Below, in pieces: positions 1,369 to 47,654 of a stretch of 52,384 nucleotides of DNA. Source of the stretch: a virus; the IMG/VR virus record IMGVR_UViG_3300027969_000136, positions 1 to 52,384 of that record; one strand, 5' to 3'. The position numbers and the translations under genes were made by a program. The stretch's first letter is position 1. Every line of letters starts with the position of its first letter. A model generated the notes under the pieces. The model saw nothing but the letters and a program-made list of their open reading frames with translations. It did not search any database and was not told the origin of the DNA.

Positions 1369-1383
1369 GGGTCACAGTGACCC
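1369..1383. repeat. 15-bp palindrome GGGTCACAGTGACCC, copy 1 of 5
   Basis: A perfect 7+1+7 palindrome sits two bases downstream of the peptidase stop codon and upstream of the ribosome-binding site of the next gene. It belongs to a set of five at 1369, 4274, 5472, 5910 and 6410, all outside or at the very edge of genes of the leftward operon. It could be an operator or a tight RNA hairpin; it has no T-run to make it a classic terminator. Confidence 0.85.
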
Positions 1384-1385
1384 GC

Positions 1386-2522
1386 TTATGCTTCACAATG
1401 AATCGCATCGAACAGTGTGCAGAGCACTGTCGATGAGTCGTAGGTGTGAGCCATTGTGATGGCTTCTTGTAGTAATTCTGTGGTGAGTAGCCTGCGGTTG
1501 AGGAACCGCACAGCAATCAGTGGATCTTCAGGGTATACCGCCTCGCTGATAAGCTCAAGCAAGAAGTCATAGCGTTCATCAAGCGCATCGTCAATGGCGT
1601 CAAGCAAGTCCTCTGTCTCCCAGTAGTCATCGTCTTGCCAGTGGCCAAAGTATTTGCTATCGACTTGGTTGTTGTGGTCGTACGCCTTGCTGTCGTATTT
1701 AGTCCACCACCCCGTCATACCCATGTCGTACTTGGTTTCCTTGTACTCAGGCACAGTCGGGTCACGATCAGTAGGCAGCTTGTCCCATTGAACCTGGAGG
1801 ACGGCCTGAGACAGTAGCTCGTAGTGGTGGATGTTGAGACACTCTTGCTGACTGTGCTCATGGTCATATCCTACACTGATGTTTGTACACTCGGGGATGA
1901 TGTCGATGAACTCAGCGGTATCCGTATACACACCCGTGTCGTCAGGGGTATACATCAGGTTCTCATCGTGCAAGTTAAGCGCATCGGCCAGTGCTTGACA
2001 GAAAGTATCAGACGCACAACGACTCCAGCCCTGATGACTGATGACGTTATCTGTACCCCGTCTGTCGAACGCTATGGCTCTGTCGAACTGAGCAAGCAAG
2101 GGCGCATGATTCTTCTCCAAGAACTTAGCACCGATACCACCGCACTCCTCGCCTTGGCTGAAGATGTAGTAGCCCTTGACCCCACTGTGCATCATGTGCA
2201 TGAGCAGAGCAACGCCTGCACCATCGTCAGCACCAAGCGGTGCGCCATCGGCATACCACATACCCGCAGTCTTCCTGATCTTGTTAGCACCTACCTCGCG
2301 GTGTACTGTGTCAACGTGAGCAATGAACAGGGTACGGCTACCTGCTATGCGGTTGTCGATGTGAAGATTACCTGCACCATCCACAGATGTGAACGACTTG
2401 AGTTCTGCGGGTAGCGTATTGAATAGCCACTCAGTGAAGTCAGACACAGCGACAGTATTGTGAGGACGCTTGGCAGACAACGCCCGAGCTAGGGTTTTGT
2501 GTAGTATTGATTTCTTGTTCAT
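1386..2522 (-). CDS. M20/M28-type zinc metallopeptidase
   Basis: A 378-residue protein with the full set of co-catalytic zinc-peptidase motifs. Counted from the chosen start they are AHVDTVH (H69, D71), LGADDGAG (D99/D100), GEECGG (E125 general base, E126 ligand), AFDRRG (D153) and GYDHEHS (H223). Established for the family: such enzymes cleave amino-terminal or small peptide/amide bonds with two zinc ions in the cytoplasm. The catalytic region ends near residue 240. The last 140 residues are an acidic helical tail I do not recognise. I start at the second methionine (2522): the AAGGAGA site is well spaced for it but almost touches the first ATG (2528), which also overlaps the upstream stop. 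No signal peptide, so it acts inside the host cell. The true substrate is unknown. Confidence 0.8.
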   Translation of the reverse strand: MNKKSILHKTLARALSAKRPHNTVAVSDFTEWLFNTLPAELKSFTSVDGAGNLHIDNRIAGSRTLFIAHVDTVHREVGANKIRKTAGMWYADGAPLGADDGAGVALLMHMMHSGVKGYYIFSQGEECGGIGAKFLEKNHAPLLAQFDRAIAFDRRGTDNVISHQGWSRCASDTFCQALADALNLHDENLMYTPDDTGVYTDTAEFIDIIPECTNISVGYDHEHSQQECLNIHHYELLSQAVLQVQWDKLPTDRDPTVPEYKETKYDMGMTGWWTKYDSKAYDHNNQVDSKYFGHWQDDDYWETEDLLDAIDDALDERYDFLLELISEAVYPEDPLIAVRFLNRRLLTTELLQEAITMAHTYDSSTVLCTLFDAIHCEA

Positions 2523-2524
2523 GT

Positions 2525-4219
2525 TCATTCTCCTTGTGTTTCTAAGTATTTGTTTGCGATCTCGTTGGCTTGTGCCATGAGGTCAGTGCAAAGTATTTCA
2601 CGCACCATTCTGTTGAAGCCTGCTCTGTCTTGGCTATTGATGAACTCAGTGGTGTATCTGCGCTCAGCGCGTAGCTTGCGGTCATCGAGTGTGTAGGTCA
2701 GGCTGATAATTACATCGCCCATACCAATCGAGTAGTCCCATAGCATATGCACATTCCACAGCATATCCATGGTCAGCATGGTGGGCATACCCTCGTCCTC
2801 ATCAATGCGCTTGGGTGCATTGTCTTTGTGATAGCGCACACCCTCGATCTCAACCCAATCGGCACAGTCATCGGTGTACCAGTTGCACGACTGCTCGCAT
2901 TGCCAGCCGTCCTCGGTCAAGCCGTACTCATCGGTGTCCTCGAACCGACACACACGCTCATCGTCTATCAGATACCAGTCACCATTGATCTCAACGGCCT
3001 CATCCATCGGGGCGTACTCACCGCACTCAAGCTCAATGATCTCGTTGTCAGCAAGATAGTCCTCATCGTAGTGCTCGCTTTGAGAGTCGACATACACCAC
3101 GTTGTCGTTGTGTACATAGTACTGATTGCCTCGTCTGCCGTACACATAGGTGTAGTGGTTGTTAAGGCACGACTCACAGACACGAGTGTCCTCACCGCGT
3201 CCGATCCAGTACCCGTCATCGTCAGAGGTGCGGTCGCCACAGTCCTCACAGTCAAAGGAGTTCTCGTCCTCCTCATCATTGGTAGCATACCCGCCAGTGT
3301 TCTCGCATATCCAGTCACCATCCGAGTCGATCTCAAGCCAGCGCTCATGCTCGTTGACCTCAACGTGACGCTCACCGCCATCGAGGTAGGGTGCAAGGAA
3401 GTTGTCTCGTGCAGGATGGTACGCCAGCTTCTCACCCTCACGCCAGTAACCCTCCTTGGTATAGCCCTGTTCCTTGAGCCACGTATCCATGCCGTCATCT
3501 GTCTGACTGTAGCTGGACTCGTTGGATGGGCGCAGGTAACTGCGAACGAAATACTTGACGCCATCATCGGGGCTGGTCATACACAGCGCACGACCCATCG
3601 TGGTATCACCCTCGATGCGAACCGCCATGTGCCAGCCATACTTGGGATCGTATGCCTCGTAGGGGTGACGGGTCACGCCATCATCGCACTTGATACCATG
3701 ATCCTCGCCCCATACCATGCACGACTTCGGCCCACGATGTAGGTGGTAGATCATCTCGGCGGTAGTGTGTACGAGTTGGAACCGAGCCGCTGATCCGTAG
3801 CGTGAGACAAGATCACGGATGGTGTGATCGGGTAGGTCGAAGTGTCTGTTGAGATACTTGCCCACCGATGTGACAGTCTGAATGTCACGCCTACCCTTGT
3901 CCTCGTTCTGTGTGTAAGCGATCTTGGACTTGTCACCTTGGGATACATGAGGCCACTCAAGCAGCATCTGATGCCAGTCACGGGGACGAGCGATCAGAAC
4001 AGCGGCACGAATAACCTCGTGCATCTTGTAGCGTTGTATCTCGCGGTTGATCCAGCGTCTTGCCTCACGCTTCTCGTCAATAGCGATGCAAGTCTCGGTG
4101 TCGCGGGCTTGATGCCACTCCACCATCAGGTCGTGATCTACGATGCGGATAGACTGCTCCGCAAGATCAATGGTTTGTAGCATCTGTATGCCGTCATAAG
4201 TTGTGTCAGTGTGTGACAT
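2525..4219 (-). CDS. large acidic protein with CxxC zinc-ribbon-like pairs, function unknown
   Basis: A 564-residue protein in three parts. Residues 1-160 are helical and charged. Residues 160-280 form a globular part with HLHRGPKSCM, a DPKYGWHMAVR segment and a Trp/Tyr-rich region. Residues 285-465 are very acidic and Tyr/Trp/Cys-rich. The last part has CEDC (C324, C327) and CESC (C348, C351) as a probable zinc ribbon, and further Cys at 399, 424, 441, 445 and 452. About 100 helical residues follow. The start has a strong TAAGGAGAA site. It is followed directly by the peptidase with overlapping stop and start, so the two are probably coexpressed. Nucleic-acid or protein binding through the ribbons is an inference; I do not recognise the family. 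Confidence 0.7.
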   Translation of the reverse strand: MSHTDTTYDGIQMLQTIDLAEQSIRIVDHDLMVEWHQARDTETCIAIDEKREARRWINREIQRYKMHEVIRAAVLIARPRDWHQMLLEWPHVSQGDKSKIAYTQNEDKGRRDIQTVTSVGKYLNRHFDLPDHTIRDLVSRYGSAARFQLVHTTAEMIYHLHRGPKSCMVWGEDHGIKCDDGVTRHPYEAYDPKYGWHMAVRIEGDTTMGRALCMTSPDDGVKYFVRSYLRPSNESSYSQTDDGMDTWLKEQGYTKEGYWREGEKLAYHPARDNFLAPYLDGGERHVEVNEHERWLEIDSDGDWICENTGGYATNDEEDENSFDCEDCGDRTSDDDGYWIGRGEDTRVCESCLNNHYTYVYGRRGNQYYVHNDNVVYVDSQSEHYDEDYLADNEIIELECGEYAPMDEAVEINGDWYLIDDERVCRFEDTDEYGLTEDGWQCEQSCNWYTDDCADWVEIEGVRYHKDNAPKRIDEDEGMPTMLTMDMLWNVHMLWDYSIGMGDVIISLTYTLDDRKLRAERRYTTEFINSQDRAGFNRMVREILCTDLMAQANEIANKYLETQGE

Positions 4220-4244
4220 CTTGCTTTCTCCTTAAGTTTCAAGT

Positions 4245-4264
4245 GCCGAGGGAACCGCCTCGGC
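4245..4264 (-). other. 7-bp stem RNA hairpin in the 5' leader of the 564-residue gene
   Basis: GCCGAGG and CCTCGGC form a perfect 7-bp stem with a six-base loop. It lies between the palindrome at 4274 and the ribosome-binding site of the gene starting at 4219. No T-run follows on the minus strand, so a terminator is unlikely. It may stabilise or separate the downstream message. Confidence 0.5.
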
Positions 4265-4273
4265 TTCGGTTTC

Positions 4274-4288
4274 GGGTCACTGTGACCC
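4274..4288. repeat. 15-bp palindrome GGGTCACTGTGACCC, copy 2 of 5
   Basis: A perfect 7+1+7 palindrome overlaps by one base the TAG stop of the gene ending at 4288. It has the same sequence as the copies at 1369 and 5910 except for the central base, which is self-complementary by position. The placement right behind a stop codon repeats at four of the five sites. Confidence 0.85.
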
Positions 4289-5127
4289 TATTTCGTTTCG
4301 GGATACATCCCGTGCCACGTTGGGGGAACGAAGTCGTTGGGCTTCAACTCATCCATCCACCTCAATGCTTGCTTAATCTTGCGCACTGTTTGTAAGTGCT
4401 TGTCTGTTGGTTCTATCTCATACGCCTGCTGTGCGTTGATAAGCTCGTTCTCTGTTCTCAGTTTTAATCTCTCAAGCTGGGCCGACTTAGCCTTACTCTC
4501 TTGAGGTGGCCTGCTTGTGCGTTGAAAAGGTAGCTTGCGTTTCATGCGCGGTGATGTAGGGATGAGGCCAAACAAGTCGCTCACCTCTTGACGCTGTGCT
4601 CGTGGAACCCAGTCAGTCCAATGCGCTCCGTTGTTAGGTATGGCTCGGGGATTCTTGCGTTGAACCCATGCCGAGAACTGCGATGGCGTCATCCGATGGC
4701 CAAGCTCAGGCTCAACGATGTCCCCGTTGTCGTTCACGTAGGTAGTCATGTAATTAGTTTTAATCTTATGCTCAAGGCGTTGCATCACCTCGATGTATCT
4801 GTCGAACGCCTCGTCACGTTCGGGTGTTGGGTTGGTGCTTTTGTACTTGCGACCCACGATGGCGTTGGCCAACTCGTACTTCAGGTCACGCAGTAACGCT
4901 TTCCAAAGCGCATCGAACTGCTTGTTGCGTAGCTTGCTTGACTTCATTTCCGATTTCTTTTTGAGCAATAACTCCATGCGTTCAACACGCACGCTCGGAT
5001 CGGAGATCGTTTTCACAAGGTAGTTTTGCAGTTGCTTGGGGGTCAGCTTGAGTTGCTGTGCCTCGCTCAAAGGGTTACGCATGAGCTTGAGGTCAAGATG
5101 TGTCGAGATTAAAGCTATATTTTTCAT
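4288..5127 (-). CDS. basic hypothetical protein, 279 residues
   Basis: The protein starts MKNIALISTHLDLK and is strongly basic and helical. It has a Lys-rich first third (LLKKKSEMKSSK), a central segment with TPSQFSAWVQRKNPRAIP, and a C-terminal coiled-coil-like stretch ending MYPETK. The frame stays open upstream to 5373 with methionines at 5301 and 5373. I prefer 5127 because an AGGA site sits six bases ahead of it, and because the upstream DNA carries repeats shared with clearly non-coding DNA at 5412-5457. Nucleic-acid binding is plausible from the charge but not shown. Family not recognised. Confidence 0.6.
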   Translation of the reverse strand: MKNIALISTHLDLKLMRNPLSEAQQLKLTPKQLQNYLVKTISDPSVRVERMELLLKKKSEMKSSKLRNKQFDALWKALLRDLKYELANAIVGRKYKSTNPTPERDEAFDRYIEVMQRLEHKIKTNYMTTYVNDNGDIVEPELGHRMTPSQFSAWVQRKNPRAIPNNGAHWTDWVPRAQRQEVSDLFGLIPTSPRMKRKLPFQRTSRPPQESKAKSAQLERLKLRTENELINAQQAYEIEPTDKHLQTVRKIKQALRWMDELKPNDFVPPTWHGMYPETK

Positions 5128-5474
5128 TTGCTGTCCTAGATTAAACAGGTATCCGAAATGGATGGATAGATGATAACTAATATCCACGCCGTGTGCAAGG
5201 CAGAAACGGGTTGACTGTCCATGGTATCCGTCCTTTTTTAAAAACAACAACGCCTTAGCATAAAGTAAAGGGCTGTCGAGCTTACGGAAAATTGCTCGCA
5301 TATACAAACACACTCCTATATATATAAATATATTTAAAAAGATATATATAAAGGACAGTTGTCTCGGACGCAAGCAATGGCGCGGGTTTGCGCTGTACTC
5401 GGAGCTTGGATAGCTGTTTAATCATGGATAGGTAGGTAAATTGTAGATTAAACAGCTTTGGACGACAATTCGGG
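5128..5474. other. AT-rich control region, candidate origin or early regulatory region
   Basis: About 350 bp without a convincing gene. Seen: an almost pure A/T tract at about 5317-5354; the 12-mer TAGATTAAACAG at 5137-5148 and again at 5444-5455; its inverted core at 5412-5423; related ATGGAT/GATAG segments near 5158 and 5424; and GGTATCCG at 5147 and 5223. Repeated short motifs beside a melting-prone tract are what phage replication origins and multi-site promoters look like. Which of these it is remains inference. The alternative is an N-terminal extension of the gene at 4288-5127. Confidence 0.45.
5412..5457. repeat. 12-bp perfect inverted repeat with 22-bp spacer
   Basis: AGCTGTTTAATC (5412-5423) is the exact reverse complement of GATTAAACAGCT (5446-5457). 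The right arm shares TAGATTAAACAG with a direct copy at 5137-5148. The pair could fold into a cruciform or RNA hairpin, or be two facing protein sites. Confidence 0.8.
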
Positions 5475-5486
5475 TCATTGTGACCC
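5472..5486. repeat. 15-bp palindrome GGGTCATTGTGACCC, copy 3 of 5
   Basis: The same element with one mismatch in the left arm. It overlaps the stop codon (5475-5477) of the 60-residue gene, so that TGA is formed by the palindrome itself. There is no T-run on either side. Confidence 0.8.
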
Positions 5487-5657
5487 GTTTTGCCATGCTT
5501 GACGCATTTCGGAGCGTGCTTCCATCTCCTCAACTTTACGCAAGGCCAGTGCTTTGCGCTCATCGTGCTTGATGCGTTCCTCATACTTGGGGCGTTGTTC
5601 GTTGTTCCACTTTGCGAGCGCGACTTGCTTGGGGGTGTAGTGCTTGAACTTGCTCAT
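5475..5657 (-). CDS. 60-residue highly charged hypothetical protein
   Basis: Starts MSKFKHYTPKQVALAKWNNE and continues as an almost uninterrupted charged helix (ERIKHDERKALALRKVEEME), probably a coiled coil. An AAGGAG site lies seven bases ahead of the ATG and includes the end of the preceding gene. No recognised family; it looks like a small dimeric helical protein. Confidence 0.6.
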   Translation of the reverse strand: MSKFKHYTPKQVALAKWNNEQRPKYEERIKHDERKALALRKVEEMEARSEMRQAWQNGSQ

Positions 5658-5660
5658 GGT

Positions 5661-5834
5661 TTACTCCTTGATGTAGGTGAGGATGTTGAGAACTGTACGG
5701 GCGGCATAGCCTGCAAAGACAAGAGAGGCTTGACGTAGCCAGAAGCCATCGCCATCCCATCCTGCGTAGAGCAGGCAACAGACGAGAAGCGTGCCCATGA
5801 TGGCCGCGAGTGCATGGTATTGATTGTCAGACAT
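5661..5834 (-). CDS. 57-residue protein with two predicted membrane helices
   Basis: The start at MSDNQYHALAAIMG is chosen because AAGGAAA lies nine bases before it; the frame is open 14 codons further upstream without such a site. Two hydrophobic stretches are seen, about residues 8-25 (LAAIMGTLLVCCLLYAGW) and 33-52 (ASLVFAGYAARTVLNILTY), joined by a short polar DGDGF turn. A hairpin inner-membrane protein is predicted. It is far from the lysis genes, so a holin role is only one option. Its stop overlaps the ribosome-binding site of the next gene. Confidence 0.6.
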   Translation of the reverse strand: MSDNQYHALAAIMGTLLVCCLLYAGWDGDGFWLRQASLVFAGYAARTVLNILTYIKE

Positions 5835-5871
5835 GGTGTTTTCCTTTTTGGTTAGACAAGAAACGAAACAA

Positions 5872-5894
5872 CGCAAGAGGCTCTTTCTCTTGCG
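5872..5894 (-). terminator. 8-bp hairpin with weak T-rich tail
   Basis: CGCAAGAG and CTCTTGCG form a perfect 8-bp stem with a seven-base loop. On the minus strand the stem is followed by a T-rich stretch (TTGTTTCGTTTC). Together with the palindrome at 5910 it makes two successive hairpins in the gap after the gene ending at 5930. It is a possible partial terminator or processing site. Confidence 0.4.
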
Positions 5895-5909
5895 CGTTCA
5901 GAAAAAAGC

Positions 5910-5924
5910 GGGTCACAGTGACCC
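5910..5924. repeat. 15-bp palindrome GGGTCACAGTGACCC, copy 4 of 5, followed by T6
   Basis: Perfect copy, identical to the one at 1369, extended by one further C/G pair to 5909-5925. On the minus strand it is followed by GCTTTTTT, so this copy alone also looks like an intrinsic terminator (seven-pair stem, three-base loop, T-run). It lies five bases beyond the stop codon of the gene at 5930-6307. Confidence 0.85.
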
Positions 5925-5929
5925 GAAAA

Positions 5930-6307
5930 TCATGCAACGAGAGCTTTCAGGGCTTTGCGTTGTTCTGCAGGGGTGAGCTTGCCAAAGGCTTCGATGATTT
6001 TCGCAACAGGGTCAAGCGGTTCTTTCTTTGCGCTTGAGGTTCTGCGCGTAGTTCCCTCGATCATGTGCATGATGTCGCGCACTGTGGTCTTCGCGCCTTC
6101 GTACTTGGGGTGATCGCTCACCAGTACGATCTTGCCCGCCTTGGTTTCTCTGAACTCTGCGCCCGTCTTGCCACAAGCCCACTCGATGACAATGGGTCTG
6201 CACGCTTCGACTGTTGCGTAGCCCGCATCCTTCATGCCTTGTATGAGCTTGACCCGTGAGTCAGCGAATGTGTTGAGTGTTGCGAACGCTTTGGATTTGT
6301 TTGACAT
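5930..6307 (-). CDS. 125-residue basic hypothetical protein, first gene of the leftward operon
   Basis: The start MSNKSKAFATLNTF has an AAGGAG site nine bases upstream; an in-frame extension to 6373 lacks one. The sequence is Lys/Arg/Ala-rich and soluble. It includes KTGAEFRETKAGKIVLVSDHPKYEG and ends in a short amphipathic helix, LTPAEQRKALKALVA. It is the promoter-proximal gene of the minus-strand unit, where phages often keep regulators or host-takeover factors. That role is inference only, and I do not recognise the family. Confidence 0.6.
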   Translation of the reverse strand: MSNKSKAFATLNTFADSRVKLIQGMKDAGYATVEACRPIVIEWACGKTGAEFRETKAGKIVLVSDHPKYEGAKTTVRDIMHMIEGTTRRTSSAKKEPLDPVAKIIEAFGKLTPAEQRKALKALVA

Positions 6308-6409
6308 GGTGTTTCTCCTTGAATGTCGTTGTTGCCTCAGAGGGAATCCCTTATGGCTAACTCCATTGTGCATATACCCCTGTTTGATCGGGGTTGACTA
6401 CCCTTTTTC

Positions 6410-6424
6410 GGGTCACGTTGACCC
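6410..6424. repeat. 15-bp palindrome GGGTCACGTTGACCC, copy 5 of 5
   Basis: Same element with one mismatch in the right arm. It differs in place from the other four: it lies in the untranslated leader between the leftward promoter candidate (6589-6618) and the first gene (start 6307), not behind a stop codon. An imperfect relative, GGGTTGACTACCC, lies about 20 bp to the left. Confidence 0.8.
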
Positions 6425-7388: not shown

Positions 7389-8919
7389 CGCTTTTACAAC
7401 ACTCAGTAAGCTTGAGCTTGAGGCCATGGAGAAGGCGTTGCCGTACATGAACGTGCAAGAAAAGATGGAACTCTTTGAAGACTTGGAGCTTCGTGAGAAA
7501 CGCGCCAGCTTGAAAGCGGCAGGAACCAACATGCTGGGGTTTGCCAAGGCGGTCTACCCCGGATTCAAAGTCGGCCCTCACCATAAAAAACTAGCAAAAA
7601 TCTTCACCGATGTCGTAGAAGGCCGCAAAAAAAGGGTCATCATCAACATCGCGCCGCGTATGGGTAAGTCTGAGTTCTCGTCTTATTTGTTCCCCGCATA
7701 CTTCCTAGGTAAATACCCTGAGAAGAAAATCATCATGGGCACGCACACTGCAGGTCTGTCTGAGGACTTTGGCAGGCGGATCAGAAACTTGATTGACACC
7801 GAGGAGTACCGTGAAGTCTTCCCTCAAACAATGGTGGCGGATGACCAGAAGGCTGCTGGAAAATGGTCTACTAGTGCTGGTGGTCAGTACTATGCTGCTG
7901 GTGTCGGAGGAGCTCTTGCCGGTCGTGGTGCCGATTTGTTTGTTATTGACGATCCTCATTCTGAACAAGATGTGAAATCCAACAGCCGTTTAGCGTTTGA
8001 CACGGCATGGTCTTGGTTCCAAACGGGCCCGCTTCAGCGCTTGATGCCGGGTGGTGGGATCATCATCGTGATGACACGCTGGTCACTGCTTGACCTGACC
8101 GGACGCCTGATCGACTACCAGACCAAAAACCCCGAAGCTCTGCCTTGGGAGATTGTGGAGTTGCCCGCCATCCTGAACGATGGGGAGGAGGACGAGAAGT
8201 CCCTCTGGCCAGACCAGTGGTCGCTTGAAGCGCTCAAATCCACCAAGGCATCCATTGACCCACGGTACTGGAACGCACAGTACATGCAGCAGCCAACGGC
8301 TGAAAACTCGGCCATTGTGAGCCGTAAGATGTGGCGTATCTGGGAGGCAGACGAGCCGCCAACGTGTGAGTACATCATCCAGTCATGGGACACGGCGTTT
8401 GAGACCAAGACCAACTCCGACTATTCCGCGTGTACAACGTGGGGTATCTTCTACAACGAGGAAGAAAATGACTCGCCCCAACTTATCTTGCTCGACGCTT
8501 TTAAAGACCGGATGGCTTTTCCAGAACTTAAGACCGTTGCGCTTAAGCACTACAAGGAGTGGGAACCCGACGCGTTCATTGTGGAGAAAAAGGCGGCTGG
8601 CGCACCACTGATCCAAGAACTTCGGGCGATGGGCATACCTGTGCAGGAGTTCAGCCCAAGCCGTGGCAACGACAAGACTGTGCGGGTCAACGCAGTTGCG
8701 GATTTGTTCAGCAGTGGTAAAGTCTGGGCACCCGACACACGCTGGGCACGGGAAGTGATTGAAGAGATGGCCGCGTTCCCAGTTGGGGAGCACGACGACT
8801 ACGTGGATACAACAACACAGGCGCTGCTACGCTTTAGGCAAGGCGGCTTTATCAGTTTGGACACGGACGAGAAAGATGACTCGGAAATCTTTCGCCGTAA
8901 GACGCACGCATACTACTAG
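7378..8919 (+). CDS. terL: terminase large subunit (packaging ATPase/nuclease)
   Basis: A 513-residue two-domain packaging motor. ATPase domain: Walker A APRMGKSE (residues 92-99), Walker B LFVIDDP (187-193) and MTRWS (232-236, coupling-type motif). RNase H-fold nuclease: SWDTA (D338), EKKAAG (E403) and HDDYVD (472-477) supply the metal-binding acids. The length and motif order match complete terminases, so it is intact. It forms a pentamer on the portal vertex, cuts concatemeric DNA and pumps it into the prohead. It overlaps the small subunit gene and is followed eight bases later by the portal gene, the usual packaging cluster. Confidence 0.95.
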   Translation: MKRDAFTTLSKLELEAMEKALPYMNVQEKMELFEDLELREKRASLKAAGTNMLGFAKAVYPGFKVGPHHKKLAKIFTDVVEGRKKRVIINIAPRMGKSEFSSYLFPAYFLGKYPEKKIIMGTHTAGLSEDFGRRIRNLIDTEEYREVFPQTMVADDQKAAGKWSTSAGGQYYAAGVGGALAGRGADLFVIDDPHSEQDVKSNSRLAFDTAWSWFQTGPLQRLMPGGGIIIVMTRWSLLDLTGRLIDYQTKNPEALPWEIVELPAILNDGEEDEKSLWPDQWSLEALKSTKASIDPRYWNAQYMQQPTAENSAIVSRKMWRIWEADEPPTCEYIIQSWDTAFETKTNSDYSACTTWGIFYNEEENDSPQLILLDAFKDRMAFPELKTVALKHYKEWEPDAFIVEKKAAGAPLIQELRAMGIPVQEFSPSRGNDKTVRVNAVADLFSSGKVWAPDTRWAREVIEEMAAFPVGEHDDYVDTTTQALLRFRQGGFISLDTDEKDDSEIFRRKTHAYY

Positions 8920-8927
8920 GATTAAAC

Positions 8928-11432
8928 ATGGCAACGAACATCGACAAAGCGCTGTACCAACAACCACTGGGCATCGACGCGCTTGGAGAGCAAGAGTCCC
9001 CCCTTGAGATCGAGATTGTTGATCCCGAAGAAGTCACCATTGGCATGGACGGGTTGGAGATCACCATTGGCAAGGAAGACCCAGAGGAAGAAGGCTTCAG
9101 TGATAACTTGGCCGAGTACATAGACGATGGTGCCTTGCAGTCGCTTGCTGGTGACTTGGTGTCTGACATTGACAACGACAAAGCCTCACGCAAAGAGTGG
9201 GAGAAGACTTACGTTGATGGTCTGAAACTCTTGGGCCTCCAGATCGAGGAGAGAACAGAGCCATGGCAGGGTGCTTGCGGTGTGTTTCACCCCATGATTA
9301 CAGAAGCCGTGGTGCGCTTTCAGTCCGAGACAATCACTGAGACGTTCCCAGCCCAAGGGCCTGTGCGTTCCAAAATTCTGGGTAAAGAAACGCCAGAGAC
9401 AAAAGAGATTGCAAGCAACATCGAAGAGGACATGAACCACGAGTTGACAGACGTCATGACGGAGTACCGCTCCGAACATGAGCGCATGCTCTGGTCACTG
9501 CCAGCCACAGGCTCAGCGTTCAAGAAGGTCTACTACGACCCCAATTTGGGACGTCAGGTGTCGATGTTTGTGCCAGCAGAAGACATGATCTTGCCCTACG
9601 GCGCAACCGATTTGGATACTTGCCACCGCGTCACGCACGTCATGCGCAAGACCAAGAACGAGGTCATCAAGCTTCAGCAAGCCGGGTTCTACCTAGACAT
9701 TGAGTTGCCCGATGCGCCCAAAGACCGCACTGATATTCAGAAAGCCAAGGACAAAGAGACCGGCTTTAACGACCTGAACGATGACCGCTACACCATCTAT
9801 GAGTGCCACGTTGACTTGAACCTTGACGGTTACGAGGACATGGTTGAGGGAGATGACGGCGAGGAAGAAGAGACCGGCATCATGCTGCCGTACGTTGTCA
9901 CCATCATCAAAGGCTCAAACGACATCCTGTCAATCAGAAGAAACTGGAGTGAAGACGATGACCTCAGACTTAAGCGCCAACACTTTGTCCACTACCAATA
10001 CATCCCCGGCTTTGGAGCGTATGGTTTTGGACTCTTCCACCTTATCGGTGGTTTTGCCAAGTCAGCCACTAGCCTTATGCGTCAACTTGTCGACGCAGGA
10101 ACGTTATCTAACCTTCCCGGTGGACTCAAGTCAAGGGGACTGCGTATTAAAGGCGATGACACGCCTATCGCCCCCGGTGAGTGGAGAGACGTCGATGTAG
10201 CCTCTGGCAACATCAGGGACAGCATCCTGCCTTTGCCCTATAAGGAGCCAAGCGCCACGCTGTTCAATTTGATGCAGACCATCGTGGATGAAGGCCGCCG
10301 GTTTGCCGCAACTGCCGACATGAAGGTGTCTGACATGAGCGCGAATGCGCCCGTGGGCACAACGCTGGCTTTGTTGGAGCGTCAGTTGAAGGTGATGACT
10401 GCGGTGCAGGCTCGTGTGCACTTTGCATTGAAGCAAGAGTTCAAGCTCTTGAAGAACATCATCCGCGACTACACCGACCCAGACTACACATACACCCCTG
10501 AGTACGGTTCACGTAAAGCGAAGAAGGCTGACTACGACTTGGTGGATATCATCCCCGTGTCAGATCCCAATGCGGCCACCATGAGCCAGCGAGTGATCCA
10601 GTACCAAGCTGTGATCCAGATGGCGCAGATGGCTCCGGACATCTACAACTTACCCGAACTCCACCGCGGTATGTTGAACGTCTTGGGTATCAAGAACGCT
10701 GAGAAGCTTGTGCCGATAGCAGATGACATGAAGCCGATTGACCCTGTGCAGGAGAACCAGAACGCACTCAAGGGCACACCGCTCAAAGCGTTCCTGCATC
10801 AAGACCACCAGTCACACATCCAAGTGCACATGATGCTGCTCCAAGACCCGATGATTCAGCAGTTCATTGGCCAGAACCCGCAGGCCCCCAAGATCATGGG
10901 CGCAATCACTGCGCACATTGCAGAGCACGTTGGCTACCAGATGCGTCAGAAGATCGAGCAACAACTCGGTATGCCCTTGCCTCCCGAAGACGAGAAGTTG
11001 CCACCGCAGATTGAGATTGCCTTGTCGGGCATGATGGCTCAAGCGGCTCAGCAGGTTCTCATGCAGGATCAAGCCAAGGCCGCGCAGATGCAAGCACAGC
11101 AGCAACAGCAAGACCCGCTTATCCAGATGCAGATGCAAGAGTTGCAGTTGCGTGGCCAAGAATTGGAACTCAAGAAACAGAAGATCATGATGGATGCTGC
11201 CGCCACCGCGGATAAACAGCAGTTGGAAGAACAAAAGGTCAGTGGTCGTTTGGAACTCGACGCCCTCAAAGTGGGTGCACAAATCAAAGAGTCCCAAGCC
11301 AAGACCCAGTTTGAACAAGAACGTGCCGGTGTCCAGATGGGCGCTGACATCGCAAAGAGTAAAGCCCAGATGGATTTACAAGCGCGTACTACTGCGCTCC
11401 AAAATAGTAGCAAACAAGGTTCTAGAAAATGA
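8928..11432 (+). CDS. portal protein (P22/SU10-like)
   Basis: An 834-residue protein directly after the large terminase. It has the typical phage portal core, including WEKTYVDGLKLLGLQ, EPWQGACGVFHPMITEAVV and QYIPGFGAYGFGLFH. The length, well over 700 residues, fits large podovirus portals. The last 120 residues are Gln/Met/Lys-rich and form a long helix (QAQQQQQDPLIQMQMQEL), comparable to the helical barrel of P22 portal. An acidic N-terminal extension of about 65 residues comes first. It forms the dodecameric ring through which DNA enters and leaves, and it binds terminase and then the adaptors. Its TGA overlaps the next ATG. Confidence 0.9.
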   Translation: MATNIDKALYQQPLGIDALGEQESPLEIEIVDPEEVTIGMDGLEITIGKEDPEEEGFSDNLAEYIDDGALQSLAGDLVSDIDNDKASRKEWEKTYVDGLKLLGLQIEERTEPWQGACGVFHPMITEAVVRFQSETITETFPAQGPVRSKILGKETPETKEIASNIEEDMNHELTDVMTEYRSEHERMLWSLPATGSAFKKVYYDPNLGRQVSMFVPAEDMILPYGATDLDTCHRVTHVMRKTKNEVIKLQQAGFYLDIELPDAPKDRTDIQKAKDKETGFNDLNDDRYTIYECHVDLNLDGYEDMVEGDDGEEEETGIMLPYVVTIIKGSNDILSIRRNWSEDDDLRLKRQHFVHYQYIPGFGAYGFGLFHLIGGFAKSATSLMRQLVDAGTLSNLPGGLKSRGLRIKGDDTPIAPGEWRDVDVASGNIRDSILPLPYKEPSATLFNLMQTIVDEGRRFAATADMKVSDMSANAPVGTTLALLERQLKVMTAVQARVHFALKQEFKLLKNIIRDYTDPDYTYTPEYGSRKAKKADYDLVDIIPVSDPNAATMSQRVIQYQAVIQMAQMAPDIYNLPELHRGMLNVLGIKNAEKLVPIADDMKPIDPVQENQNALKGTPLKAFLHQDHQSHIQVHMMLLQDPMIQQFIGQNPQAPKIMGAITAHIAEHVGYQMRQKIEQQLGMPLPPEDEKLPPQIEIALSGMMAQAAQQVLMQDQAKAAQMQAQQQQQDPLIQMQMQELQLRGQELELKKQKIMMDAAATADKQQLEEQKVSGRLELDALKVGAQIKESQAKTQFEQERAGVQMGADIAKSKAQMDLQARTTALQNSSKQGSRK

Positions 11433-29532: not shown

Positions 29533-30258
29533 ATGGCAAAATCTAAAAAATCAAATAAAAGTTGTAAAGCAGCCGAGTCAGTTGCTGAAGTGGTGCAAAA
29601 CACGCAAGTTCAAACTGCAGTGTACTTCCCGTCAACAATTTATGTTCTTGAGCGTCCTGATTTTTTAGAAACTGTAAGCCGTGTCTCTGAAGAAAACCTA
29701 GAAATTAGCCGTGCCAAACGAGATTTAAATGAAATCTACCCCGTTGTAATGACGGAAAGTTTTTTTGCCGATCCTCGCATGAAAGACTTTTCAGAGTTTG
29801 TTGGCGCTACTGCATGGAACATCTTGAACGAGCAAGGGTACAACATGCAAAACTTCAACACTACATTTATGGAAATGTGGACGCAAGAGCACCACAAGCA
29901 CTCAGCCATGGATCAACACATCCACGGATACGGTTCTCAAATTGTTGGTTTTTATTTTCTTGAAACGCCTGAAAATTGTTCAAGGGTTGTGTTCCATGAT
30001 CCGAGAGCATCTAAAACACCAATTGATCTACCAGAACAAGACGCAAGTGTTGCAACTTTTGCAAGCAAAATGGTTAATTTCCAACCAAAACCCGGCATGT
30101 TAATGTTTGCAAACGCTTGGTTGGCGCACTCGTTTACACGGCACGCGGCTGAAACACCAATCAAATTTGTGCACTTTAACTTAGGTGTACAGTACACTGA
30201 GAACGCTGTGTTCGCCGCACCCGCCGTTGCTGCTCCTGCTGGCGCAGAAGTAATATGA
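29533..30258 (+). CDS. 2-oxoglutarate/Fe(II)-dependent oxygenase-like protein
   Basis: A 241-residue protein whose second half follows a putative 2OG-Fe(II) oxygenase family common in phages. DQHIHGYGSQIVGFYFLETP holds the proximal HxH (H129, H131), FHDPRAS follows, and the distal site is FANAWLAHSFTRH (H199, R203) with the FNL strand after it. The family normally binds iron by this triad and 2-oxoglutarate by the basic residue. The substrate may be a fibre or host protein or a nucleotide; the location next to adhesin genes favours a structural target, by inference only. The ribosome-binding site is good (AGGAG). Confidence 0.7.
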   Translation: MAKSKKSNKSCKAAESVAEVVQNTQVQTAVYFPSTIYVLERPDFLETVSRVSEENLEISRAKRDLNEIYPVVMTESFFADPRMKDFSEFVGATAWNILNEQGYNMQNFNTTFMEMWTQEHHKHSAMDQHIHGYGSQIVGFYFLETPENCSRVVFHDPRASKTPIDLPEQDASVATFASKMVNFQPKPGMLMFANAWLAHSFTRHAAETPIKFVHFNLGVQYTENAVFAAPAVAAPAGAEVI

Positions 30259-41232: not shown

Positions 41233-41306
41233 ATCGCGCCATAATAGCGACACGCGCTTCTTGAACTCCGGCATCGCGTGGCCGGAAGACAATTCGATTG
41301 ATAGCA

Positions 41307-44300
41307 ATGGCTAACTACATCAAACTGCCGGACGGCTCTTTCTTTCCCGTTGAGGAAGGTGAAAACTACACATCCGCTATGCGTGCTGCGTACGCAAAGT
41401 ACCCAGAAGCGTTTGGTGCAGAAAAACAAGAAGCCCCTAAGAAAAGCGGTATCACTGGTGCCATCGGTAAAGGGTTTGAATCCACGCTAAGTCAACTTCG
41501 TTCTGGCGTTGGCAAATACATAAACCCCGAAGAAGCTGCTGTAGCCGGGTTGCAACGTGGCGAAGAAATTTCAGGTAAATACGCCGATCAAATTGGAATT
41601 GATAAAGTCAAAGAAGCATACAACAAAGATGGTGTTCTTTCTGCGGCTAAAGAAGTTGGTCGCCAAATCCCTTTGGCTATTGCCGAACAAGCGCCTAACC
41701 TTGCGGCTTCTTTTGGTGGAGCGCGTTTAGGAGCAATGGCGGGTGCTCCGCTTGGCCCTTATGGTGCATTGGCTGGGGGCGCGTTGGGAGCTTTTCTTCC
41801 ATCTAAATTACAGAGCTTAGGCGGTGACATTGAACGTCAAGCTCAAGAACAAACTGCTCGAGGTGAGCCTGTAAAAATTGACACGGGTGCAGCAGAACTT
41901 GCTTCTACAGGGCAAGGAGCTTTAGAAGTCATCGCCACATTCGTCCCGTTTGGTAAACAGCTTGTTTCTAAATTGACGGGTATCCCCGCTAAAGCGTTGA
42001 CCATTGGTACAGGTAATGCGGCAAAACTTGCCGAAGAACGCCTTGCTACTACGCTTGCCAAAGGCACGGGGGTGGGTGTGTTGGCCGAAGTGCCAACAGA
42101 GATTACTCAACAAATGCTGGAGCGTGCACAGGCAGGGTTATCCCTAACTAGCCAAGACGCTCTGGAAGAATACGGGCGCACAGCCTATCAAGTCGGTTTG
42201 CTTGCCCCACTGGGTGCGGCAGGCCGCTTGTCCTCAAAAGCCGGTGCTAAGCAAGAAGTTGCCGCCAAAAAAGCGGAAGAGCAAAACCTTGCCGTTACAA
42301 CAGCGTTTAAAGAATCCGAAGCCAAGGCCACAGCACCCGAAGCACTGACCCAACTGGACGACCAGTATCGTGCTGCAACGCAGCACATGGCGTCTTTGCA
42401 ACAAGACTTGGTCAAGCCTGCCAAGGGTGCTACGCCAGAAGAGAAAGCCGCATACGCCCAAGCCAAGCAAGAGTTTGACACTTTCCGCAAGGAAGAGTTC
42501 ATGCCTTTGAAGCAAGAGTATGAGAAGCGCAAGCCCCTGATTGAAAAGATGCAGGACGAGCGCCAAGCCGCGCTAGAGGCGCAAACTGGTGCGGAGCAAC
42601 CCACAGCAGCCAAGTACGGGACAACCGACATCCCCGGTGCCGCGCCGTATTCACAACAACCCGTTGTGCGTTTGATGGAGCAACAAGACAACTTGCGCCA
42701 GCAGTTTGGTCAGCTAGAAGACAGGTTGACGGCAGCCACACCAGAAGAGTACGCACAGATTCACCCCGAGTACGAAGCAGTCAAAGCACGTCTGACGGAG
42801 ATGGGTAGTGCCATCGACGAGCGCGGCGGTGTGTCGGTGTCCGAAAAAGACTTTGTCAAACAGTTGGCCGCTGAGACTAAGAAGTTCCAAGACTTCCAGC
42901 AAAAGGGTGAGTTTGATAAAGCCAAGGAGCAAGCTGACAAGCTGGCCAACTTGAAGAAACGCCAAGCATTGTTTGATGAGATGCGTGCTGCCCGTGAGCA
43001 GCGTGGCCAGACGGGTGAGTTGTTTACCCAAGAGCAAGCACCTTTGGCTCCAACGGAAAAGCCTGAAGGCCCAGCGCAGCCAACCACTGTGCCCGGTATT
43101 GCAGAAACACCTGCGCAAGCCATGCAGTTTGAACCCAAGGAAGTGGTGGCTGAGACGCCCCGCCCCGAAGGTTACGGCATGAAACCCGTAAAAGAAGCGG
43201 TGACTTTGCCAAGCCAACGCGATCCAAAACAACTCGACATCTTTAGCCAAGAGAACATTACGCGCACGGGCATGACGCCTGAAGAACGCGCAGCGGCTGA
43301 TCGCCGTGTTGCGGAAGCCACAAACGTTCCTGCTGGACGGATAGCTCAATCTATCAAAGACGCTGAAAAGCAGCGCATGACTCGGGTACTAGATACACGT
43401 TTGAATCTTGCCGGAACAGAAGCCCAGCGCACTGTGACGCCAGAGCAGTACGACGCAACAATGGAGCAGATCAAAACGCTTCACAATAAAGTTGTGAAAG
43501 CACAAGGCAACGCCACCAAGTCTTATTTGCAACAGTTGTTTGATTTGGCAGACCAAGAAAAAGCTTTGGTGGATAGCATCAACACTGCGCAAACAGCAGG
43601 CAAGTCCGTTACGCGCTTGAACAAACAACTTAATGGTCTTCGCAATCGCTACGACAACATCTTCAACACGCACGTTGATCCCGCTCGTAAAAAGATTGAA
43701 ACGTTGTACCAAGGTATGTACAAGGCTAAACCTGCGGTCAAAGCCAGTGTTGTGGCGGCTGAAAAGAAAGCAGCCGGCGAAGCCCAGCTTGGCACGCTCA
43801 AAATTAAAAACGCTGAAGGCAAGACCATTGGCGCTAAAGTAAGCCGCGCTGTCAAAGAAACCAAACGGATTAGCGAAGGCAACGTTCGTAAGGAAGCCGA
43901 AGACTCTGCGCAGATGCGCAAACTGGCCGATGATTTGGGCAGACAAGAACCTGAGTTTGACAAACTGGGTAAATCCATGACGAAGCGCTTGAAGGCGCTT
44001 CAAGAGAAGTACGGCAGAAACGACCCTGCTGTGACTGCGTTCCAGCTACAGATGAACGATGCGCTAAATGCCAAAGCGCTTGAACTTGGGCGGCAAACAC
44101 CAGAGTACAAGGCTACGCTTGCGGAGCAGACAGGCATTGTTAAAGAAGCACTGGCGCAAAGCAAACAGACAACCCCATCTAAACGCACTGTTCAAGAGAC
44201 TCGTAAGGTGCGCCGTGCACCAACGGAAGAACGTACAGGCTCTGCTGAAAGCCGTGCAACTACAGAAAGAAAAGCTTTGCGTGAAGCAGGTTCACGCTTG

Positions 44301-47300
44301 ACCAAAGCGCAGGTTGAGGAGCTTGTCAAAACAGCGTATGACACCGATGGTGGCACAGCCTACCGCACCCGTGAGACAGAAGGCGAGAGCGTTGATCCTA
44401 AAGCCGCATCGGACTTCATTGAAAAAGTGCAGAGTAAACTGCCTGAGAACGTCAAGCTGGTATATGCCGCTACCCCCGGCAAGATTCCTGTTCGTCTGCT
44501 CAAGCAGATGTCCAATGAAGGCATTGACCCAACCGAAGCCATGGTGCAAGGCGCTGTATTCAGTGACGGCACGGTCTTGGTGGTGGGCGACCAGCACGTT
44601 GACTTGAAAGATTTGGAAGCCACCGTACTGCACGAGTTGGTTGGCCACTACGGTATTGACACCATCATCGGGCTAGAGCGCCTCCAAGCCTACGCCAACA
44701 AGACAGACCTTCGTGCACTGGCTGAAGAAATTGGTGGCCAAGACCTGCTCAACGAAGTGATCCGTACTGCGCAAGCTAACGAACGCATGGGTCGAAGCGT
44801 AGAAGTTCAGAAACTTCAAGCACTGCGCGAGATCATTGCGCATACTGAAGAAGCTCGCGTAAACGAAAGCTTCAAACAAAAAGCTGGCCGATGGCTCAAA
44901 GAGTTGATCGGGATGGTTCGCGCAGGCTTGCGTGACATGGGCTTTACTTCTTCCTCTCTACTATCAACATCTGACGTTTTCTATTCTTTGCGTCAGTCTC
45001 GTCAGGCGTTTGCATCCAAACGGCTTGGCCCTTACCGCGCAGCCGATGGCCAGATTGCTTTCCGTACCAAGGTTGACCCCGGAGTTAAGTCTTCGTTCAT
45101 TGCAACCAAGCCTTCGATCAAAGACCGCCTCATGGGGAACTTCCTTGGGTTGGCGGGTCGCGTGCAGTTGGTTGACCAGCATGCCGCCATCTCTGAAGCA
45201 TTCAAACGTGGCGCAGATAAGGGCATCATCTCCTCTGCCGAGGCGCTTAACGGTGAATGGTTGTTACGCTTTGGGCAGAACGTAAGCCAATACGCTCAGC
45301 AATTCATGACGCATGGCCGTGTGCAATATCAAACCGTGACACGTAATGGCGTGACGGAAAAGATTTTCATGAGCGACAAAGGCCCCAACATGTTGGATGC
45401 CGCCGAAGCGTTGTACAAGGGCAAGTTTGACAGCGACACAGAAGCCGAAGCGTTCTTGACTGCCTACGTTGCCGGGCAGCGTGCCGAAGCTGTGGGCTGG
45501 GAGAAGCTGAACTACAAAGACCCTGCCGCAGTCAAGCGCGAGTACCAAGAGCGCATGGCCGCACTCAAAGCAAACCAAACACAGTTTGATGCCGTGCAGG
45601 AAGCTGCCAAGATTTATCAAACGTACAACAACGGCTTGATTGACTTCCTTGTGCAAACGGGCGAGATGACTCCCGAGAAAGCTGCAGCGCTCAAGAAGAT
45701 TCCTTACATTCCGTACTACCGCGTGGACGGCGACTCACTCAACTTGTTTGTGGCTGGGGAAAAACCCATCCGTATTGGCAACGTCAAAGACCAACCCGAA
45801 CTCCAGCAACTGGTGGGCGGTGAAGATCAGATCATGCCAATCTTTACGAGTGCAGTGCAAAATACTTTTATCTTGACCCGGATGGGTTTGCGCAACGCCA
45901 TGATGAAAGACAACTCTTTCCTCCTGCACAAGCTTGGTATGGCCAGCAAAATTGGCCCCGGCATGGGCCCCAAAGGAGAGAACGTTGTTCGCTTCAAAGT
46001 CAAAGGCAAGGATCACTTTGCTGTCATTGACACAGACAAGTTTGACATCCCCGCTGAGTTGGTGGTCAAGGGTATGGAAGGCATCAAGACCACACTGCCA
46101 GCCGCTATCCGTCTGATGGGCTACCCCGCAGATATTCTGCGTAAGTTTGTGACTCGCAACCCTGCGTATGCTGTGCGTCAGGTTATCCGCGATCCTTTGA
46201 ACGCGTGGCTCACTACTGGTACAGACGCTACGCCTGTCTTAAGTTCCATGAAAGAGTTGGCTAAGATGGTGGCGGGGCGTAGCGAAACCGAAGAACAGCT
46301 TATGCGTACAGGCGCGATCAGTAGCAACGTCTTCTCCGGCAATGCCCGTGACATGGATATGCTTTTGCGTGACATTACCGCTGGTAAATCTGGTTGGGCT
46401 AAGTTGATGGCCAAGGCTGATGCGCTTGCTATGCAGGGCGATGCGGCTACCCGTGCTGTGATATATAAGGAATCCATTGACAAGGGAATGTCCGAACAAC
46501 AGGCGCTTCTCCGTACGCTTGAGTCCATGAACTTTGGCCGTCGTGGTTTGTCGCCTAGCATGCAGATGCTCTCGACTGTGATCCCGTTCTTTAACGCACA
46601 GATTCAAGGTCTGGACGTGCTGTACCGCGCATACAAAGGACAGATGCCGTTCAATGAACAGCTAAAGATCAAAGAGAAAATGATGCAACGCGGTATGTTC
46701 ATGGCGTTGGGAACCATCGCTTACGCCGCCGCTATGCAAGACGACGAAGCCTACAAACGTGCCAAGCCAGAGGAACGCTACGGCAACTGGTTCATCTACA
46801 TCCCCGGCTTTGACGAACCTATCAAAGCGCCTATCCCGTTTGAATTGGGTTACTTGTTTAAGGCGTTGCCCGAAGCTGTGTGGAACATGGCGGCAGGTGA
46901 CGAGAAAGCCTCCAAAGCAGTGGGCGGTTTCCTCAAACTTCTTGGCCAGTCCAATCCGTTTGGTCTGCCCCAAGCTGTCAAGCCTGTGGCTGAAGTGGTA
47001 CTCGGTAAGTCGTTCTTCAGTGGCGACATTGAATCAGCCCGTGAGAAGCAACTGCTGCCAAGCGAACGCTACCGCGACAACACAACGGAACTTGCCAAGC
47101 TCATCGGAGCAGCAACGGCAAGCAAAACCGTCAAGGACATCACGGGTAAGGAAGGCATCACGCCTATCGAGATTGACTACCTCATCCGTGGCTACACCGG
47201 CGGTCTGGGTATTGCCATTGTGCAGTTGGCCAACCCGCTGTTTAACATGGAAATGAAATCTGATGTTGCCAAGCCATCACTTAAGTTGAGCAAGACTCCG

Positions 47301-47654
47301 TTCATTGGTGGTTTGTTCCAACCCGTTGAAGGCCGTGGCACACTGGACGAAGCGTATAGCATGATGGAGCAGGTCAAGCAAACCAAGGCCACGTACAACA
47401 GCTTGGTGGAAAAAGGCGAACGTGCCGAGGCCAGAGCCTTCGCACAGGAGAACGCAGATAAGTTGGCGCTTGCTTCCACATCCGGTCAGGTATTCAAGTT
47501 CTTGGGCGAACTAGCCAAGCAAGAGCGCATAGTGAAAGCCGATCCACGCTTGACTACCGAGCAGAAAGATGAACGCTTGGCAAGACTTGACCAACAAAAG
47601 ATCAACTACGCTCGTCGCTTTATCCTCCTAGGCGATAGAACCACACGCCAGTAA
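41307..47654 (+). CDS. giant polyvalent ejection protein with HExxH metalloprotease-like site
   Basis: 2115 residues from ATG 41307, three codons inside a TTG-initiated frame. Parts, residues approximate. 1-40: MANYIKLPDGSFFPVEEGEN, an N-terminal motif of large phage polyvalent proteins. 60-330: helical, with a Gly/Ala hydrophobic stretch (FGGARLGAMAGAPLGPYGAL). 340-1000: Lys/Glu/Gln coiled coil. 1040-1180: a compact domain with ATVLHELVGHYGID (HELVGH at 1109-1114), a zinc-metalloprotease-type HExxH. 1580-2000: a helical domain with NPAYAVRQVIRDPLNAWLT, STVIPFFNAQIQGLDVLYRA and NWFIYIPGFDEPIKAPIPFE, resembling large polyvalent protein-associated domain LPD38. It is the last gene of the late unit. 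Likely ejected with DNA; the peptidase activity is unproven. Confidence 0.75.
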   Translation: MANYIKLPDGSFFPVEEGENYTSAMRAAYAKYPEAFGAEKQEAPKKSGITGAIGKGFESTLSQLRSGVGKYINPEEAAVAGLQRGEEISGKYADQIGIDKVKEAYNKDGVLSAAKEVGRQIPLAIAEQAPNLAASFGGARLGAMAGAPLGPYGALAGGALGAFLPSKLQSLGGDIERQAQEQTARGEPVKIDTGAAELASTGQGALEVIATFVPFGKQLVSKLTGIPAKALTIGTGNAAKLAEERLATTLAKGTGVGVLAEVPTEITQQMLERAQAGLSLTSQDALEEYGRTAYQVGLLAPLGAAGRLSSKAGAKQEVAAKKAEEQNLAVTTAFKESEAKATAPEALTQLDDQYRAATQHMASLQQDLVKPAKGATPEEKAAYAQAKQEFDTFRKEEFMPLKQEYEKRKPLIEKMQDERQAALEAQTGAEQPTAAKYGTTDIPGAAPYSQQPVVRLMEQQDNLRQQFGQLEDRLTAATPEEYAQIHPEYEAVKARLTEMGSAIDERGGVSVSEKDFVKQLAAETKKFQDFQQKGEFDKAKEQADKLANLKKRQALFDEMRAAREQRGQTGELFTQEQAPLAPTEKPEGPAQPTTVPGIAETPAQAMQFEPKEVVAETPRPEGYGMKPVKEAVTLPSQRDPKQLDIFSQENITRTGMTPEERAAADRRVAEATNVPAGRIAQSIKDAEKQRMTRVLDTRLNLAGTEAQRTVTPEQYDATMEQIKTLHNKVVKAQGNATKSYLQQLFDLADQEKALVDSINTAQTAGKSVTRLNKQLNGLRNRYDNIFNTHVDPARKKIETLYQGMYKAKPAVKASVVAAEKKAAGEAQLGTLKIKNAEGKTIGAKVSRAVKETKRISEGNVRKEAEDSAQMRKLADDLGRQEPEFDKLGKSMTKRLKALQEKYGRNDPAVTAFQLQMNDALNAKALELGRQTPEYKATLAEQTGIVKEALAQSKQTTPSKRTVQETRKVRRAPTEERTGSAESRATTERKALREAGSRLTKAQVEELVKTAYDTDGGTAYRTRETEGESVDPKAASDFIEKVQSKLPENVKLVYAATPGKIPVRLLKQMSNEGIDPTEAMVQGAVFSDGTVLVVGDQHVDLKDLEATVLHELVGHYGIDTIIGLERLQAYANKTDLRALAEEIGGQDLLNEVIRTAQANERMGRSVEVQKLQALREIIAHTEEARVNESFKQKAGRWLKELIGMVRAGLRDMGFTSSSLLSTSDVFYSLRQSRQAFASKRLGPYRAADGQIAFRTKVDPGVKSSFIATKPSIKDRLMGNFLGLAGRVQLVDQHAAISEAFKRGADKGIISSAEALNGEWLLRFGQNVSQYAQQFMTHGRVQYQTVTRNGVTEKIFMSDKGPNMLDAAEALYKGKFDSDTEAEAFLTAYVAGQRAEAVGWEKLNYKDPAAVKREYQERMAALKANQTQFDAVQEAAKIYQTYNNGLIDFLVQTGEMTPEKAAALKKIPYIPYYRVDGDSLNLFVAGEKPIRIGNVKDQPELQQLVGGEDQIMPIFTSAVQNTFILTRMGLRNAMMKDNSFLLHKLGMASKIGPGMGPKGENVVRFKVKGKDHFAVIDTDKFDIPAELVVKGMEGIKTTLPAAIRLMGYPADILRKFVTRNPAYAVRQVIRDPLNAWLTTGTDATPVLSSMKELAKMVAGRSETEEQLMRTGAISSNVFSGNARDMDMLLRDITAGKSGWAKLMAKADALAMQGDAATRAVIYKESIDKGMSEQQALLRTLESMNFGRRGLSPSMQMLSTVIPFFNAQIQGLDVLYRAYKGQMPFNEQLKIKEKMMQRGMFMALGTIAYAAAMQDDEAYKRAKPEERYGNWFIYIPGFDEPIKAPIPFELGYLFKALPEAVWNMAAGDEKASKAVGGFLKLLGQSNPFGLPQAVKPVAEVVLGKSFFSGDIESAREKQLLPSERYRDNTTELAKLIGAATASKTVKDITGKEGITPIEIDYLIRGYTGGLGIAIVQLANPLFNMEMKSDVAKPSLKLSKTPFIGGLFQPVEGRGTLDEAYSMMEQVKQTKATYNSLVEKGERAEARAFAQENADKLALASTSGQVFKFLGELAKQERIVKADPRLTTEQKDERLARLDQQKINYARRFILLGDRTTRQ

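Follow-up and report, generated by a model that had tools for sequence, protein, structure and literature searches.

The stretch of freshwater-phage DNA analysed here, referred to as the window (52,384 nucleotides, IMG/VR record IMGVR_UViG_3300027969_000136), carries in its left operon two minus-strand genes, P0001 and P0002. From its PHROG 4191 membership, AF2 model, Foldseek matches and invariant residues, P0001 (positions 1386–2528) is assigned as a 380-residue zinc peptidase of clan MH (M28/M20/M42-type). The 564-residue partner P0002 (2525–4219) comprises, according to alignment and AF2 model, a core at residues ~115–300 (3320–3877, minus strand), followed from residue ~324 by a CxxC zinc-ribbon region; SCM is our own name for this otherwise unnamed core domain. 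The first ATG of P0001 lies at 2528 and overlaps the P0002 stop codon by 4 bp (ATGA at 2525–2528, minus strand; GGAGAATGAACATG), an arrangement of translational coupling. A second in-frame ATG is found at 2522, which accounts for the first-pass annotation placing the gene at 1386–2522: the ORF was recognised correctly, while its end has to be moved to 2528. A motif scan together with related loci revealed the palindrome GGGTCACNNTGACCC on either side of the two genes: one copy, at 4274–4288, precedes the start of P0002 by 55 bp, and another, at 1369–1383, lies just past the P0001 stop and precedes by 22 bp the following gene, which starts at 1347. Further copies lie at 5472–5486, 5910–5924 and 6410–6424. 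All five are located within 1369–6424 (10 two-strand matches versus 0.95 expected), hence in the left operon only, and most of them 20–55 bp upstream of minus-strand ORF starts. Since the palindromes bracket P0001 and P0002 and are kept upstream of P0002 and after P0001 in related phages (about 45 related loci), we treat the pair as one unit; the palindrome itself could be an operator, a promoter element or a 5′ UTR hairpin. Scanning the window against Rfam and for tRNAs gave no match. Elsewhere in the window, a 2OG-Fe(II) oxygenase (phrog_81) is encoded at 29533–30258 within the structural region, and a 2118-residue ORF, whose first 734 residues have no PHROG match, is found late in the genome at 41298–47654.

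The complete zinc peptidase ORF described in the first-pass annotation is real and lies on the minus strand, with all five quoted motifs present (AHVDTVH at residue 70, LGADDGAG at 98, GEECGG at 126, AFDRRG at 153 and GYDHEHS at 220). They provide the metal ligands H–D–E–D/E–H as H71, D101, E128, D155 and H225 and the catalytic acids as D73, the Asp of HxD, and E127, the Glu of EE. The glutamate proposed earlier for mutation as E125 is E127 in full-length numbering. From alignments and motif positions, the codons for H71, D73, D101, E127, E128 and D155 were located within 2064–2318, with the H225 codon set apart from them at 1854–1856 (both minus strand). All seven residues are invariant in an alignment of 48 diverse relatives, and among 185 homologues no more than 2 deviate at any of these clan-MH positions. 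Since its dN/dS values against relatives amount to 0.11–0.19, P0001 is kept under selection; values for P0002 are 0.19–0.24. That P0001 is a decayed or neutral passenger gene is scarcely credible, given dN/dS of 0.11–0.24 over both genes and an invariant active site, with nothing beyond an absent assay to speak for it. The gene is thus intact, as had been claimed, and residues, predicted fold and purifying selection support an intact two-zinc peptidase, whose activity is predicted.

The AF2 model of P0001 (pLDDT 90.1, computed with the 48-sequence alignment as input) has a phosphorylase/hydrolase-like alpha/beta/alpha fold. A Foldseek search against the PDB gave 148 matches below E 1e-3, the best of which are M42 TET and PepT aminopeptidases (E 2e-10, 12–17% identity), so that the structural comparison with M20, M28 and M42 enzymes suggested in the first-pass annotation leads to M42 and PepT, with the two-zinc residues in place. 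The model shares catalytic fold and two-zinc residues with M42 TET and PepT (M20B) structures (PDB 2wyr, 3gb0, 3rza), but these low-identity matches carry a lid or dimerisation insert that is absent in P0001. Only 30 residues separate H71 from D101 and 70 residues D155 from H225, leaving no room for the M42/M20 lid or dimerisation domain, and a TET-like cage assembly is consequently not predicted. The compact, lid-free layout is shared with Pfam Peptidase_M28 (PF04389), the best Pfam match. However, P0001 scores 17.7 bits, below the curated cut-off of 21.3 bits, and we therefore do not claim a specific M28 label, even though several relatives, among them those of PPWS2 and KP34, pass the cut-off. 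On these grounds P0001 is predicted to be an active two-zinc exopeptidase of clan MH with a compact M28-like layout.

The catalytic core (residues 1–261) is followed by a disordered linker (262–299, pLDDT mostly below 50) and, in the AF2 model, a confidently folded five-helix domain with a pI of 4.05 (300–380; 1386–1631, minus strand), delimited by model and tail lengths. The 140-residue acidic addition described earlier is therefore acidic and C-terminal as stated, but consists of a linker and a folded domain rather than of a single addition. Behind the last zinc ligand, paired peptidases have a tail with a median length of 149 residues, versus 26–46 residues in three partnerless chromosomal peptidases (L127, L146 and L156), from which the C-terminal domain is absent. 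This difference suggests that the helical domain serves the partnership, and we consider it a candidate dock for P0002.

Clan-MH-type peptidases had been called unusual in phages, which is contradicted by the distribution of this family. P0001 belongs to PHROG 4191 ‘peptidase’ (E 1.7e-71, residues 11–328 on profile positions 6–323 of 342), and tblastn with P0001 retrieved 364 phage records (mainly Klebsiella 230, Pectobacterium 51, Vibrio 42). In KP34-like and PhiM1-like phages the peptidase is among the conserved genes, situated in the early region of the PhiM1-like genomes, and the literature on its function in KP34 and PhiM1 offers the label ‘putative peptidase’ alone (PMC4411677, PMC6115819). 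The first-pass interpretation is thus upheld in part, for the intact peptidase and its coupling to the neighbouring gene, and has to be given up for its rarity in phages. Metal and catalytic residues of PHROG 4191 members (KP34 gp11, VP93 gp7, PhiM1_10, P23-45 gp56) are identical to those of P0001, and in Autographiviridae the upstream partner gene is found as at the P0001 locus. In contrast, most of the best cultured-phage matches are only 32–37% identical to P0001 over 63–79% of its length, their helical C-terminal domain differs in sequence, and their phages are of a type different from the HTVC023P-like phage of the window, whose terminase is closest to Pelagibacter phages HTVC027P and HTVC023P (49–53%). 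The closest plasmid relative of P0001 resides on a Limnohabitans plasmid (53%). Short solo relatives of 236–259 residues with no SCM partner upstream (L127, L133, L146, L155, L156) were also observed, on contigs of Leptospiraceae, Flavobacterium, Saprospira and Fimbriimonadales-type bins. The P0001 family is already common in phages; the part that has been overlooked is the two-gene module with the SCM gene, and the accessible portions of surveys on polyvalent proteins and jumbo phages do not describe an SCM–peptidase pair.

P0002, modelled by AF2 with a pLDDT of 89.3, has no family in Pfam, PHROG or NCBIfam, and a domain search of P0002 and its relatives in these databases gave no consistent family. 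The SCM alignment is characterised by the pattern S-C-M..Y..GRA..RxY..PYxD with invariant S-C(-M), Y, R of GRA, RxY and PYxD, which in P0002 include S166, C167, Y190, R210, P277 and D280, and judged by these invariant residues the domain appears enzyme-like. Its core is homologous to KP34 gp10, VP93 gp6 and the upstream gene of Rhizobium phage Pasto (hhalign 97–99%). The upstream gene of Pseudomonas phage Ep4 matches the partner HMM with E 1.6e-14, and Pectobacterium phage PPWS2 gp13 shows a weaker match to the core (hhalign 81%), together with the SCM motif. Searching BFVD with the P0002 model retrieved proteins of phages KpV48, DE17, Nobby and CB5. Homology extends to a jumbo-phage SCM family sharing the residue pattern (hhalign 95.6%, E 1.2e-8), which is multiplied in single genomes (LR756504 has 14 matches to SCM and 8 to the peptidase, LR756502 has 8 and 4). 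Since 67 of 80 jumbo-phage SCM loci have no peptidase within 4 kb, SCM seems to act alone as well. Some jumbo- and megaphage members (L162–L184, L197–L276) carry DnaJ-like CxxCxGxG zinc-finger arrays.

Among loci that extend 1500 bases or more upstream, the SCM gene lies directly upstream of the peptidase and co-oriented with it in the window, in 104 of 104 viral and in 31 of 38 bacterial loci, the viral loci being related and thus not 104 independent events. The survey of neighbours in relatives proposed in the first-pass annotation consequently corroborates the coupling to the CxxC protein at 2525, as do the 4-bp overlap and the co-variation described below. A spacing of −4, i.e. a 4-bp overlap, is the commonest in relatives (46 pairs). 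Among Autographiviridae, five phages carry the pair, namely KP34 (gp10–gp11), VP93 (gp6–gp7), Pasto, Ep4 and PPWS2 (gp13–gp14, assigned from the weaker profile match and the motif), and it is present in swapped order in Cellulophaga phage phi38:1 (L161) and in the 640-kb megaphage L039. Plasmids of Limnohabitans and Methylobacterium carry it, and on the Sphingopyxis conjugative plasmid pMC4 it lies between ParB and toprim. The SCM–peptidase pair is a near-obligate two-gene module common to phages, plasmids and conjugative elements. No SCM partner was detected for the peptidases of Thermus phage P23-45 and for chromosomal peptidases, and the peptidase can therefore act alone. As further observations, a Mesorhizobium contig (L145) contains two tandem SCM–peptidase pairs (3643–5927 and 7706–10392), and a 636-kb phage contains two adjacent divergent peptidase paralogues (L038 3643–7133, W01 266728–267549), one of them with a large C-terminal extension.

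The two families co-vary with a Mantel r of 0.84 over 69 non-redundant pairs, a set which includes phi38:1 and the Limnohabitans and Methylobacterium plasmid pairs, and with r 0.73 outside the phage type of the window (0 of 1000 permutations in each case); part of this co-variation must be shared ancestry. Such co-variation, together with adjacency, an order fixed in most lineages and translational coupling, would also be expected if P0001 were an enzyme encoded beside its own substrate, trimming P0002 or another phage protein at its N- or C-terminus. We regard this as improbable, as the conserved polar residues of SCM look like those of an enzyme rather than a substrate and the gene order is swapped in phi38:1 and L039. 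Moreover, clan-MH exopeptidases seldom act on folded proteins.

The neighbourhoods of the pair bear on its role. In Pasto it immediately follows an ArdA-like antirestriction gene, and on plasmids pTEGF4 and pMC4 toxin and Abi genes are its neighbours. The latter neighbours, the mobility of the pair and its tight 4-bp coupling would suit a superinfection-exclusion or toxin–antitoxin-like system, in which one protein harms the cell or rival phages and the other one restrains it. Both proteins are, however, large and enzyme-like, each also occurs separately, and lytic phages have the pair among their core early genes, which renders such a system very unlikely. An auxiliary metabolic peptidase, supplying phage synthesis with amino acids recycled from host peptides, would agree with the closest solved folds, since TET and PepT aminopeptidases degrade short peptides, but leaves the SCM partner, the C-terminal domain, the carriage on plasmids and elements and the ArdA neighbour without explanation. 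The near-obligate partner, and the finding of the gene on plasmids and at element-like loci in chromosomes, speak against the recycling of host peptides, one of the roles considered initially, and we consider it unlikely.

More weight is given to a writer–eraser pair, in which SCM would be a CoA-independent GNAT-fold acyl- or aminoacyl-transferase (FemX/MprF/ATE-like) adding an amide-linked group that P0001 removes or trims. A GNAT-like SCM fold would turn the pair into a maker and a breaker of amide bonds. Of the 50 top PDB matches retrieved with the P0002 model, 48 belong by name to the GNAT fold, MprF, A-PGS and ATE1 among them, and the DSSP order b1-a1-a2-b2-b3-b4-a3-b5 of residues 146–275 fits GNAT; structural matches and topology order both point towards GNAT/FemX-type transferases. 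The lead match, FemX, reaches a probability of 0.98 at E 0.022. Yet E values are 0.02 or worse throughout, and target TM-scores are low (0.23–0.47 for most). In BFVD, the model additionally matches a phage protein annotated as amidoligase; tblastn with the zinc-ribbon region of P0002, searching for an amidoligase link, gave no match, with low-complexity filtering as the likely cause. At the sequence level, homology to GNAT was not supported: when SCM cores were compared with GNAT alignments by hhalign, probabilities did not exceed 1.8%, as against 75.9% for a GNAT-to-GNAT positive control, and the acyl-CoA loop RxxGxG (R/Q-x-x-G-x-G/A) is absent from the SCM consensus between b4 and a3. FemX-type GNAT members are not known to carry this loop either. 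Nor does the window contain a tRNA, and no GluRS was found in 40 related phages. With an unsupportive profile test and the CoA loop absent, the GNAT reading stays a rival, and the writer–eraser pair is doubtful.

A link to glutamate or tRNA had been considered because a GluRS gene lies near the LR756504 peptidase, and because the pairs of phi38:1 and Methylobacterium have a tRNA-Glu and a GluRS-family gene nearby, respectively; it was dropped with PF00749 present in 0 of 40 related phage records. The phi38:1 locus features an RtcB-type RNA ligase besides the tRNA-Glu within 5 kb of the pair, and in the 636-kb phage a GluRS-like gene is situated ~700 bp upstream of the first peptidase paralogue (L038).

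We tentatively favour, at a little under even confidence, a model in which P0001 and P0002 constitute an early host-takeover or counter-defence module, with SCM selecting or modifying a target and the peptidase cutting its amide bond. The acidic helical domain of P0001 would dock on P0002, which, via SCM core and zinc ribbons, may select or chemically modify a host or defence target, and P0001 would then hydrolyse a peptide-type (amide) bond on the target so selected. The module would be made early in infection or on entry of the element and would serve takeover or counter-defence rather than nutrition, with early expression in the window phage inferred by analogy from other phages. We base this role on the early site in relatives, the ArdA-like gene in Pasto, the plasmid and element-like carriage and the enzyme-like conservation of SCM, and it appears to fit the genomic contexts. 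The acylated or peptide messenger of a host defence, suggested in the first-pass annotation, is one of several possible substrates.

A further-reaching and rather doubtful proposal is that SCM founds an undescribed enzyme family, possibly of CoA-independent GNAT-fold transferases, which together with its dedicated zinc peptidase would perform write-and-erase or mark-and-cut modification of proteins or peptides against host defences, across phages, plasmids and conjugative elements and with more than 10 copies in jumbo phages. Knowledge of the pairing makes of the orphan ‘putative peptidase’ a two-component system that can be tested, and it draws attention to an unnamed domain whose invariant residues look enzyme-like and whose genes are multiplied in jumbo phages. 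Many KP34-type Klebsiella phages have the pair among their conserved early genes, and their cultured members allow direct access to it at the bench.
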